Program-made: the position numbers and the translations under genes
In this document: positions 115-50,028 of the stretch, piece after piece
Layout: every line of letters starts with the position of its first letter
Numbering within the stretch: the first letter of the stretch is position 1
Notes under the pieces: generated by a model
Databases searched by the model: none
The model's input: only the letters and a program-made list of their open reading frames with translations
Told to the model about the DNA's origin: nothing
NCBI RefSeq assembly: GCF_000735345.1
Contig: NZ_JMPJ01000031.1
Location: 1-50,028 of the forward strand
Length of the DNA: 50,028 nt
Origin: Ewingella americana ATCC 33852
GTDB taxonomy: Bacteria; Pseudomonadota; Gammaproteobacteria; Enterobacterales; Enterobacteriaceae
Direction: 5' to 3'

Positions 115-390
115 GCGAAGGCACCGCCTAAGCGGCGACATTTTGCGGTGGATAACGGAAGCCCCTGAAACACGTCCACCCAACGAGCGATAGCGCGCAG
201 TATAGAGCCGGGGATTCTCAAGGGGCGCGGCGATAGGCGCCCCTTGAGGCCGGTGTGGCGGCAGCGCACGGTTTTGACCTAGACCTTAAAGGCCAGTTTG
301 CGTGGCAACGCAAGGTTTTGACGGTGTGGCGGCAGCGCACGGTTTTGACCTTGAGGGTCAGTTTGCGCGGCAACGCAAAGTTTTGACCTT
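115..390 (-). repeat. Structured dispersed repeat element, copy 1 (3' UTR of ybiO)
   Basis: Read on the minus strand (as the ybiO transcript), an AAGGTCAAAAC box starts a few bases after the ybiO stop. It is followed by an array of hairpins separated by repeats of that box, then a strong 12-bp hairpin (arms 217-228 and 237-248), a block around 163-184 (CTGAAACACGTCCACCCAAC on the plus strand) and a block at 123-137 (ACCGCCTAAGCGGCG). The same blocks occur in the same order and the same orientation relative to the upstream gene after elaA at the right end of the window. This is directly visible. The family name and function are unknown to me. Palindromic intergenic elements of the ERIC/REP kind or a structured 3' UTR are the obvious alternatives. 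Confidence 0.75.
251..390. repeat. Tandem hairpin modules (two ~70-bp units)
   Basis: A 30-bp sequence is repeated exactly at 251-280 and 322-351. Each copy is followed by a second module at about 295-321 and 361-387 containing TTTGCG(T/C)GGCAACGCAA. Each module has a short stem (GTGTG/CGCAC or TTGCG/CGCAA) followed by GTTTTGAC. The composite unit is about 70 bp and is present twice. The right-hand copy of the element (after elaA) has only one such module, so the array has expanded here. Confidence 0.85.
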
Positions 391-22177: not shown

Positions 22178-22839
22178 CTATTGAATTCCAGATTTTGTCG
22201 AAAATTTCCACGCTACCGCCCCTGGTTTACAGCAACCAATACGCTGAGAAACGGTGACTCATTTTTTTAAAACAGCAGCAAAAGCAGGCCGCAGGCGAGA
22301 TAAAAATCACCTGTAAGAATATTTGTAGCGTCGTTAATTGAGTCGAAGGACGGGGCAAAACTGAACATGAGCTAGCCAGGCCAAAAAATAATTTTTAGCC
22401 TTTAAAGCGGTGGACGCGGGGTATCTAAACCGCCGAAGCGGGTCAAAACGTGTCGAGTATGATCAGAGCCTTAACAAATATTTCAGCACGTTACAGGTGT
22501 AAGCCGAAGTCTGTAAAATTGCTTTAGGCTATTAATTTGTCTTTAATTATTTACCTAGGCTATCGATTAGGATTTTTCTTATCGTGAGATTTAAAATTAA
22601 TAAATAACAACAGGTTATGATTAGTCCGACTCTGAGATTTTCAATGAAATTAGTTATGATTGAGAACTGTAACCTTACTTGATTATTTCAAATTGCATTG
22701 AAATATCAAATTTCGATCTATTTCTGCTTGTTTCAGACTGTTTATTGCTAGCAGGGGTGCCGTGCCAAAAAGCGGGCAGGGTATAGCGGAATAGGGAAGG
22801 AAGATTGTCCGCCGGAGAAAAAGGTTGGTTGTTCGCTGA
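22178..22839. other. Capsule promoter region between kpsM and ybiI
   Basis: This 662-bp region holds the JUMPstart element at its left end and otherwise no supported gene. It is AT-rich, with runs suited to H-NS or IHF binding. In E. coli the region 3 capsule promoter lies several hundred bases upstream of kpsM, so the long leader is expected. The exact -10/-35 of the kpsM promoter could not be fixed by eye. Confidence 0.5.
22209..22247 (-). promoter_or_regulatory. JUMPstart / ops element (RfaH recruitment) in the kpsM leader
   Basis: On the minus strand the core GCTGTAAACCAGGGG is followed directly by GGCGGTAG (ops, at 22213-22220) and CGTGG, about 35 nt before the kpsM ATG. It matches the JUMPstart consensus of capsule and O-antigen operons. 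RfaH is recruited to RNA polymerase paused at ops and suppresses termination in long polysaccharide operons. The match is seen directly; RfaH action is established for the element. Confidence 0.92.
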
Positions 22840-49278: not shown

Positions 49279-49312
49279 AAAAGAGATAACCTTCGGGTTA
49301 TCTCTTTTTTTT
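49279..49312 (+). terminator. Terminator of betIBA
   Basis: The 13-bp stem AAAAGAGATAACC / GGTTATCTCTTTT is capped by a TTCG tetraloop and followed by TTTT. It lies 37 bp after betA. Confidence 0.93.
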
Positions 49313-49346
49313 GGCTACGGCACAGCTTGGCAGGAGCGAGAACTTT

Positions 49347-49829
49347 ATGACTGATTCAAACAAGGACATTCTTTGGCAGGATATACACCACAGTAAACTC
49401 AATGTCGCCCAGCTTTACGCCATTCTGGCCCTGCGCAGCGAAGTGTTTGTGGTCGAGCAAAATTGCCCCTATCAGGATATTGATGGCCGTGATTTAGTCG
49501 GCGAAAACCGCCACATCATCGGCTGGCAACATGGCCTGCCAGTGGCTTACCTGCGAATCCTCGATTTGGACGGAGAAGTAGCCATCGGCCGCGTGATCAT
49601 CGCCCCCGCCGCCCGAGGCCTGAAGCTCGGTTATCAGCTAATGGAAAGGGCGCTGCAATCCTGTAAGAAGCACTGGCCCGACGCCGACGTTATCCTCTCC
49701 GCTCAGGCACACTTGCAGAAATTCTACGGCAGTTTCGGGTTTGTGGCTTATACGGATATTTATGATGAAGACGGGATCCCGCATATAAGTATGAAGTTAG
49801 GGGCGGGTGGCCAGAACGGTGAACTTTAA
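49347..49829 (+). CDS. elaA: GNAT-family acetyltransferase ElaA
   Basis: The 160-residue protein has the ElaA layout: WQDIHHSKLNVAQLYAILAL, LRSEVFVVEQNCPYQDID, and the acetyl-CoA loop GRVIIAPAARGLKLGYQLME, then AQAHLQKFYGSFGFVAYTDI and DGIPHISMKL at the end. I begin at the ATG at 49347, with AGGAG upstream; a TTG further up lies in the preceding terminator tail. The substrate is unknown. The gene is followed immediately by the structured repeat element. Confidence 0.92.
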   Translation: MTDSNKDILWQDIHHSKLNVAQLYAILALRSEVFVVEQNCPYQDIDGRDLVGENRHIIGWQHGLPVAYLRILDLDGEVAIGRVIIAPAARGLKLGYQLMERALQSCKKHWPDADVILSAQAHLQKFYGSFGFVAYTDIYDEDGIPHISMKLGAGGQNGEL

Positions 49830-50028
49830 GGTCAAGGTCAAAACCGTGGGCTCGCCGCCCACACTGGCCCAAAGGGTTTTAAACGAAACCCTTTGGAATC
49901 CTGCGTTTTTTGCTGCGGGAAGATCGAGGCTGCGCAGAGTTGGAATGGACATGTTTCAGCAGCCATCGTGTTCGTCGCGAAGTGCCGCCGCTTAGGCGGT
50001 TCCCTCGCTGCGGGATTCCAACCCGCGT
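49830..50028 (+). repeat. Structured dispersed repeat element, copy 2 (3' UTR of elaA, runs off the window)
   Basis: Directly after the elaA stop come AAGGTCAAGGTCAAAACC, hairpin GTGGGC/GCCCAC (49846-49862), hairpin CCAAAGGGTTT/AAACCCTTTGG (49869-49896), then GAATCC. The block GTTGGAATGGACATGTTTCAG begins at 49939 (first 20 bases given), and CGCCGCTTAGGCGGTTCC lies at 49986-50003. The same order of blocks is seen on the minus strand after ybiO (copy 1). The outermost hairpin around 50005-50028 (CGCTGCGGGATTCC) is cut by the window edge. Confidence 0.75.

Follow-up and report, generated by a model that had tools for sequence, protein, structure and literature searches.

The window analyzed in this study, i.e., the whole stretch of 50,028 nucleotides, is the complete contig C31 (positions 1-50028) of its own genome, G000. 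At its left end, a gene for a mechanosensitive channel of 748 amino acids occupies positions 399-2645 on the minus strand, and at its right end a gene for a GNAT acetyltransferase of 172 amino acids is located at 49311-49829 on the plus strand. Both genes are referred to here by the names that they received in the initial annotation, ybiO and elaA, with Pfam matches to the MS_channel and Acetyltransf domains, respectively. Each gene lies upstream of an arm that belongs to an imperfect palindrome with two arms and a length of approximately 600-800 bp, and both arms are cut by the contig ends.

The left arm, which is of type B (see below), covers positions 1-398 on the minus strand, starting immediately behind the ybiO stop codon and reaching the center of the palindrome. 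Read away from the gene, it contains three outer H1 units, namely AAGGTCAAAAC with a small hairpin at 356-390 (repeat family D1), a unit of the GTGCGCTGCCGCCAC type at 321-352 (repeat family D1) and a unit of the TTGCGTTGCCACGCAA type at 291-320 (from the window sequence), followed by an innermost H1 unit, again of the GTGCGCTGCCGCCAC type, at 251-280 (repeat family D1). Next come hairpin H2 at 217-248, which has a perfect 12-bp stem (CTCAAGGGGCGC / GCGCCCCTTGAG; sequence and family statistics), the conserved TGTTTCAG box at 165-172, the core hairpin GCCGCTTAGGCGGT at 123-136 (genome scan and alignment), the hairpin of module 5 at 86-110 (GGCTTCGAGCC..GGTCTCGAACC type; like the box, from sequence and alignment) and the inner end at 26-42 (ACCGTGCCGTTTCAGTG), which adjoins the palindrome center; all of these lie on the minus strand. 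The right arm, of type A, begins directly after the elaA stop codon and covers positions 49830-50028 on the plus strand. It carries an H1 hairpin (GTGGGCTCGCCGCCCAC, from the window sequence) at 49846-49862, H2 (CCAAAGGGTTT / AAACCCTTTGG, from sequence and family statistics) at 49869-49896, the TGTTTCAG box at 49952-49959 (sequence and alignment) and the core hairpin GCCGCTTAGGCGGT at 49987-50000 (sequence and genome scan). Based on the alignment of flanks (L037 versus L123), the partner arm A of the left element is probably located at the end of contig C30, and a complete orthologue of the right-hand element was found in G001 (L124/L261). The predicted single-strand folds of the two window arms were stronger than those of shuffled sequences (z = -3.5 and -2.8).

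The initial annotation had described ordered blocks shared by the sequences after ybiO and elaA, and all of these blocks were indeed present, in the order described and in the same orientation relative to the upstream gene. Two points had to be amended: the extent of the repeat is 1-398 and 49830-50028 rather than 115-390, and the two copies represent different arm types. Separately, JUMPstart elements usually sit ahead of polysaccharide clusters. Such an RNA element (Rfam RF01707) was the sole gathering-level Rfam match in the window, at 22209-22246 on the minus strand.

Copies in the genome and contig breaks

The initial annotation would have been contradicted by a genome without further copies, and a whole-genome search found many. 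Using the right-hand copy as a 200-base BLAST query, we detected at least 51 matches in G000, at least 40 of which spanned at least 107 bases; both counts are lower bounds, as 40 of 87 candidates were scored. The 14-base core GCCGCTTAGGCGGT had 56 exact copies, and 68 matches when one mismatch was allowed, compared with 6 for the reversed control pattern.

For almost half of the exact cores (27 of 56), the nearest contig end was no more than 500 bp away; of these 27 cores, 25 pointed outward. Since the window is a whole contig and cores crowd at contig ends, the presence of the repeat at both window ends is no coincidence. It is likely that the large palindrome breaks the assembly, and hence caused both these contig breaks and its own appearance at the two ends of the window. 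The repeat thus offers a likely reason why draft assemblies of the genus Ewingella break where they do.

Architecture of the element

In G001, whose 4,662,831-bp contig was taken as the chromosome with circularity assumed, the cores were mostly arranged in inverted, facing pairs that occupy the space between neighboring genes, and some sites were one-armed. Starting from the gene, an arm opens with an AT-rich filler, e.g., (TTCAAA)n, which is followed by one or more H1 hairpins and then by the long H2 hairpin. In A arms, a T-rich stretch comes next. The TGTTTCAG box precedes the core hairpin, after which module 5 leads to the inner end (CCGTGCCGTTTCAGTG), and the two arms meet at the center. 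Every one of these modules has variants. When H1 and filler motifs were searched in 800 kb of G001 (two 400-kb stretches, one in the terminus region and the other on the origin side), intergenic matches were found only inside elements, with six further matches inside genes; the idea that H1 hairpins are general terminators of the genome was not borne out in these stretches.

A perfect H2 stem of 8 bp or longer was present in 144 of 164 arms, compared with 2-5 in shuffled windows. The stems represented 27 different sequences and the loops only a few, and the stem is swapped wholesale while pairing is kept. Among 23 distinct hairpins, which had been pre-selected for good stems, 42 cells were changed on both sides versus 11 after shuffling, and two of five measures for the same hairpins were not clearly above the shuffles (46/500 for pairs altered on both sides and 323/500 for further pair types). 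In a set of 37 distinct main hairpins that was not limited to perfect stems, we counted 379 Watson-Crick pairs, 26 mismatches and only 2 G.T pairs. The fact that G.T pairs are not favored in the main hairpin points to pairing at the DNA level or to module swapping, rather than to selection on RNA only. Predicted folds of the whole gap ranged from -331 to -467 kcal/mol in four chosen elements.

Several additional features were observed in individual elements. At some element centers, e.g., in L005, L006 and L118, there was a further pair of inverted repeats (CTCCTTCTCCTCTCAGAGGAGAAGG..., CCCTCTCCTTAAAAAGGAGAGGG...), as if nested inside. In four loci (L122, L124 (also L261), L133 and L145), module 5 carries, or gives way to, palindrome-rich sequence with CTCGCCCTTCGGGTCGTTGC, and a stretch similar to this sequence adjoins a related repeat in G119, a genome of another genus (L168). 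Three B arms of G001 (L126, L133 and L147) have an extra 16-20 bases or so, containing TATCAATAAAG, just before the core. Finally, a gene for a P-loop kinase-like protein lies between both arms of one element in a cargo-like manner (L149:3083-3625 in G001 and L066:201-776 in G000); one copy just reached the cut-off for Pfam AAA_18, and the other narrowly missed it.

Two arm types

Classification of the arms revealed two types, and an element nearly always combines one arm of each. G000 and G001 together had 42 elements with two arms, of which 37 were A/B, 4 were A/A, none was B/B and one was untyped; considered on its own, G001 had 26 A/B pairs among 27 that were typed (p = 2e-7). Upstream of the core, arms of the same type were similar across sites (0.84 for A arms and 0.88 for B arms), whereas A and B arms of the same element were no more alike (0.643) than A and B arms of different elements (0.641), so that a co-evolving giant hairpin was not borne out. 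An element's two arms thus have a similarity of only 0.64; the palindrome is kept imperfect, and its arms do not co-evolve.

Long palindromes are usually destabilizing in bacteria. We found that sbcD is encoded in all six genomes of the window's genus (G000-G005), and the arms may have to differ because a long perfect palindrome would be destabilizing in cells with SbcCD. Dozens of imperfect palindromes of 600-800 bp, each with two unlike arms, thus persist in genomes that encode SbcD and offer a test of palindrome persistence.

Position relative to genes and terminators

According to gene calls from our own codon-usage script, by which some gap classes may be wrong and overlapping gene pairs were not counted, the 800 kb of G001 contained elements in 12 of 123 convergent gaps versus 6 of 483 other gaps (p = 1.9e-5). 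The same trend was observed for gaps of at least 300 bp (12 of 27 convergent versus 6 of 104 other; p = 4.8e-6). The six other gaps with an element comprised five co-directional and one divergent gap.

Orientation relative to genes was non-random, as had been proposed: 55 of the 67 arms in the G001 loci examined, and 42 of 60 in G000, were directly 3' of a gene on the same strand, although the two genomes share many sites and are not independent. The distance from stop codon to core had a median of 202 nt and a range of 75-389 nt (97 arms of G000 and G001).

We then compared the occurrence of strict intrinsic terminators in the first 120 nt after the stop codon, in windows of equal size. Such terminators were present at 5 of 55 arm-bearing ends in G001 and 7 of 42 in G000, and in three of the 12 cases the site detected was the H2 hairpin. 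The corresponding values were 43 of 146 for plain convergent sides, 46 of 231 for co-directional ends and 9 of 248 for divergent sides, the negative control. Thus, terminators were rarer at the arm-bearing ends of G001 than on plain convergent sides (Fisher p = 0.0026), whereas neither the difference between these ends and co-directional ends (p = 0.08) nor that between arm-bearing ends of G000 and convergent sides of G001 (p = 0.12) was significant. The depletion could reflect insertion rather than substitution. Within the elements, terminator-like sites by the same strict definition were found on only 2 of 24 element strands. Overall, the interpretation given in the initial annotation is partly supported, with termination itself only weakly suggested by these comparisons.

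Homologous elements were also found on plasmids of Rahnella. Six distinct sites, out of 19-33 places per query, were looked at and comprised two divergent, three co-directional and one convergent gap, two of the six being classed after we had disregarded a hypothetical protein that the annotation places on the element. These sites speak against a strict 3'-end rule. Together with the G.T pairs, which are not favored, the mostly non-convergent position of the plasmid sites also argues against a purely 3'-end RNA role. The family provides a natural test of how convergent genes are separated.

Gain, loss and rearrangement of sites

Comparison among the six genomes of the genus showed that whole elements, arms and interiors are gained and lost. 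At the elaA end, elements with different H2 stems were present in G000 (one arm seen before the contig end), G001, G003, G004 and G005. The neighbor gene on the far side was the same in G001, G003, G004 and G005 (proteins 74-88% identical), and G002 had another neighbor and no element. At the ybiO site, G001 and G002 carried the element next to different neighbor genes, and G000 also had it, with one arm seen. In G003, whose neighbor is the same as in G002 (93%), it was reduced to a chimeric H2 derived from both arms, and in G005, which has yet another neighbor, one H1-like hairpin was left. Since the 3' neighbors of ybiO differ among G001, G002 and G005, it appears that element sites coincide with rearrangement junctions.

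Similar variation was seen elsewhere. Thirteen elements of other species could be placed, eight of them at sites occupied in G001 (flanks 78-82% identical) and five not. For one element from a metagenome-assembled genome (MAG), the same convergent genes in G001 are separated by an 18-bp gap with no element. At another site, G000 has both arms and G001 a single arm; the gene on the armless side in G001 retains an intrinsic terminator. Two sites were apparently inverted between G000 and G001: the ybiO site, for which contig C30 is the presumed partner, and L063 versus L146, whose flanks align in direct orientation (91-95% identity) and whose elements align in reverse (98% identity). In one divergent gap of Rahnella megaplasmids, the full element was present in six records (one aligned, the others judged by BLAST coverage), collapsed in two to a form consisting of H1, one H2 and H1, and absent in one. 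No clean target duplication was visible by eye at the empty sites of G001 (against the MAG) and of the Rahnella plasmids. The initial suggestion of a mobile palindromic element with a target preference agrees with these empty, one-armed and collapsed sites and with the preference for convergent gaps, the latter in G001.

Taxonomic distribution

An exact pattern scan of a named genome collection, from which the window's own genome may be left out, detected 38 stretches in four genomes only: Ewingella americana E4, Hafnia psychrotolerans, the MAG CAMLBO and Enterobacterales bacterium AwEntero. All six genomes of the window's genus had matches. The covariance model that had been proposed initially was built on 40 arms and had matches in 10 of 295 sampled genomes of the family and 4 of 154 genera, a lower bound given that 12 candidates per genome were scored. 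The weak matches in one of these four genera, g117 (25-29 bits), were by eye unlike the element, probably represent chance and were left out of membership.

A second genus rich in related elements was g35, which we infer to be Rahnella. It had at least 33 places, and 20 of these were examined: by our own gene calls, 12 were convergent, 7 co-directional (one of these in a cut locus whose class could not be assessed) and 1 divergent. The share of convergent gaps varied among its genomes (9 of 10 in G257, 3 of 6 in G176 and 0 of 4 in the draft genome G039), and all ten gaps of G257 folded with long-range pairs, as expected for two arms. The named plasmid records with homologous elements were all from Rahnella for two queries, and a third query yielded 12 from Rahnella and one from E. 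coli. A link to phages was not borne out, as the element had no match in the phage collection searched. Among the matches listed in searches of the literature on Ewingella and on intergenic palindromic repeats, we found no published description of the element, and none of the terms sought for it occurs in PMC12306157.

Distribution along the chromosome

A perfect match to dif was located at 2,094,452 in G001. Using 38 sites defined by an exact 21-base core pattern, which misses some elements (e.g., at 4171940), we found 14 sites no farther than 200 kb from dif, where 3.3 were expected (p = 1.5e-6). The half of the contig nearer to dif held 34 sites, with 19 expected (p = 3e-7). In the 400-kb terminus stretch, an element was present in 15 of 299 gaps, compared with 3 of 307 in the origin-side 400 kb (p = 0.0035). 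Among the 13 elements of other Ewingella-group genomes placeable in these two stretches, 11 were in the terminus stretch and 2 in the origin-side stretch, with many sites being shared. This clustering is that of one long-contig Ewingella chromosome with assumed circularity, and the shared sites are not independent.

In G119, only one of approximately 11 places with related repeats was within 200 kb of dif (at 2.57 Mb), and six were found at 3.68-4.0 Mb. Clustering around the terminus was not repeated in this genome and is thus not a general rule. Arms of G119 were also seen in clusters, a few hundred bases apart, instead of single pairs (contig C1 at 1.92, 2.73, 3.68 and 3.82-3.88 Mb). Why repeats gather near dif in one genus is a further question for which this family is a natural test.

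Possible origin and role of the element

Based on the sequence comparisons above, we tentatively favor, with somewhat less than even confidence, the view that the element may be a non-autonomous REP/BIME-like palindromic repeat that has settled at gene 3' ends and partly stands in for a 3' boundary or terminator. It would spread as a non-autonomous palindrome, moved or exchanged at the DNA level, and would survive best in gaps without promoters, with its arms kept unlike as the presence of SbcCD would require. The multi-hairpin arm could then become the 3' boundary of the upstream gene and take over part of the work of an intrinsic terminator, possibly by stalling or trimming at H1 and H2 and by fencing convergent transcripts apart. 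Several observations count against this reading: the 15 sites in the terminus region of G001 include one divergent and five co-directional gaps, some arms follow a good terminator, e.g., in L131, L135 and L147, the terminator depletion was significant in one of three comparisons, the two arms do not co-evolve, no mobilizing enzyme of the PF01797 type was found in G000 and G001, the empty sites show no clean target duplication, and the sites of Rahnella plasmids and of G039 are mostly or entirely non-convergent.

Almost equally likely is a neutral form of this account. It holds that the element is a selfish or neutral palindrome, REPIN- or MITE-like, with no host function, whose 3' and convergent bias would come from selection against insertion near promoters. 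Presence, absence and collapse between strains or species, changed neighbors beside elements, plasmid copies of Rahnella in divergent and co-directional gaps, the lack of a G.T excess and of arm co-evolution, and the weak terminator statistics all agree with such a palindrome, and a convergent and co-directional bias is shared by published REPs (PMC3733652 and PMC1525189). What it explains less well is that terminators are depleted before the arms of G001 relative to plain convergent sides, that swapped H2 stems re-pair, and that the elaA site keeps its full architecture and the same neighbor in G001, G003, G004 and G005 despite swapped modules.

The layered structure would also allow an onion-like, nested element, a scenario that we consider unlikely. 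Starting from a hairpin between convergent genes, layers would have been added as new inverted pairs at the older dyad, first H1/H2, then the TGTTTCAG-core layer, then module 5 and then the center repeats; the product would be a giant palindrome of two arm types, tolerated by SbcCD, that serves as a boundary between convergent units, is concentrated around the replication terminus in Ewingella and lacks a known transposase.

Less probable still is a selected RNA device of the 3' UTR, with arms built as terminators or mRNA-stability modules and two-arm read-through producing a giant hairpin cut by RNase III. The 3' position, the strong predicted folds of the window arms and of the four whole gaps, and the double-sided changes in the 23 pre-selected H2 hairpins would fit such a device, but the two arms of one element resemble each other no more than arms of different elements do, G.T pairs are not favored, two of the five H2 measures did not clearly exceed shuffles, strict terminator-like sites are scarce inside elements and no Rfam family was matched. 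Least probable is an element of chromosome organization, e.g., a gyrase or nucleoid-protein site at convergent genes mainly near the replication terminus, which would accord with the dif-proximal sites of G001 and the terminus placement of elements from other genomes but is opposed by the lack of dif clustering in G119 and by the reliance of the pattern on a single assumed-circular chromosome with non-independent shared sites.

Comparison with known repeat families

The element represents a real intergenic repeat family that fits no known family tested here. Using 4227 Rfam models, no family was assigned to the window arms in the gathering scan and none to four element loci at E-values up to 0.5, which ruled out a known RNA family. 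Like bidirectional intrinsic terminators, the element lies between convergent stop codons and has hairpins readable from both sides; it differs from them in having two separate multi-hairpin arms and family-wide sequence conservation, and most arms lack a U-tract directly after the long stem. A GC-rich hairpin with a U-tract was infrequent both at arm-bearing ends and inside elements (see above).

Among enterobacterial repeats, ERIC and YPAL are likewise intergenic and palindromic, with sizes of approximately 127 bp and 169 bp, respectively, according to PMC2267715, whereas our element is layered and measures approximately 600-800 bp (for YPAL, the comparison was by size only). Two ERIC primer sequences, used in place of the full consensus, had no match with up to 5 mismatches on either strand of 169 arms, and ERIC was rejected. 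With regard to MITE features, the ends of the element are inverted, with H1 units and filler on both sides, and its empty sites are without a clean duplication by eye.

In its behavior, the element most resembles REP/BIME/REPIN repeats. REP sequences are palindromes of 20-40 bp, one end of which bears an unpaired tag, GTAG or CGTC (PMC3733652), and they are biased to convergent and co-directional gaps (PMC3733652, PMC1525189). An arm of our element, in contrast, is an ordered multi-hairpin unit of approximately 300 nt, occurs in two types that are nearly always paired with each other, and has no GTAG or CGTC tag at a constant place: GTAG was present anywhere in 23 of 169 arms and CGTC in 110 of 169, the latter by eye not at a constant hairpin foot common to both arm types. 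The Y1/HUH transposase domain of RAYT (PF01797) was absent in G000, G001 and G004 and present in one copy each in G002, G003 and G005, with no arm within approximately 1.5 kb of any copy. A RAYT-driven REP was ruled out by its absence in G000 and G001 and by the lack of arms near the other copies. On the other hand, the units of the element in G000 and G001 do form inverted pairs between genes, for the most part on the downstream side of a gene, and the element shares with the REP/BIME/REPIN sequences that accompany RAYT the nature of an intergenic palindrome, the inverted pairs, the mosaic of exchangeable modules and the preference for convergent or co-directional gaps and for positions downstream of genes.
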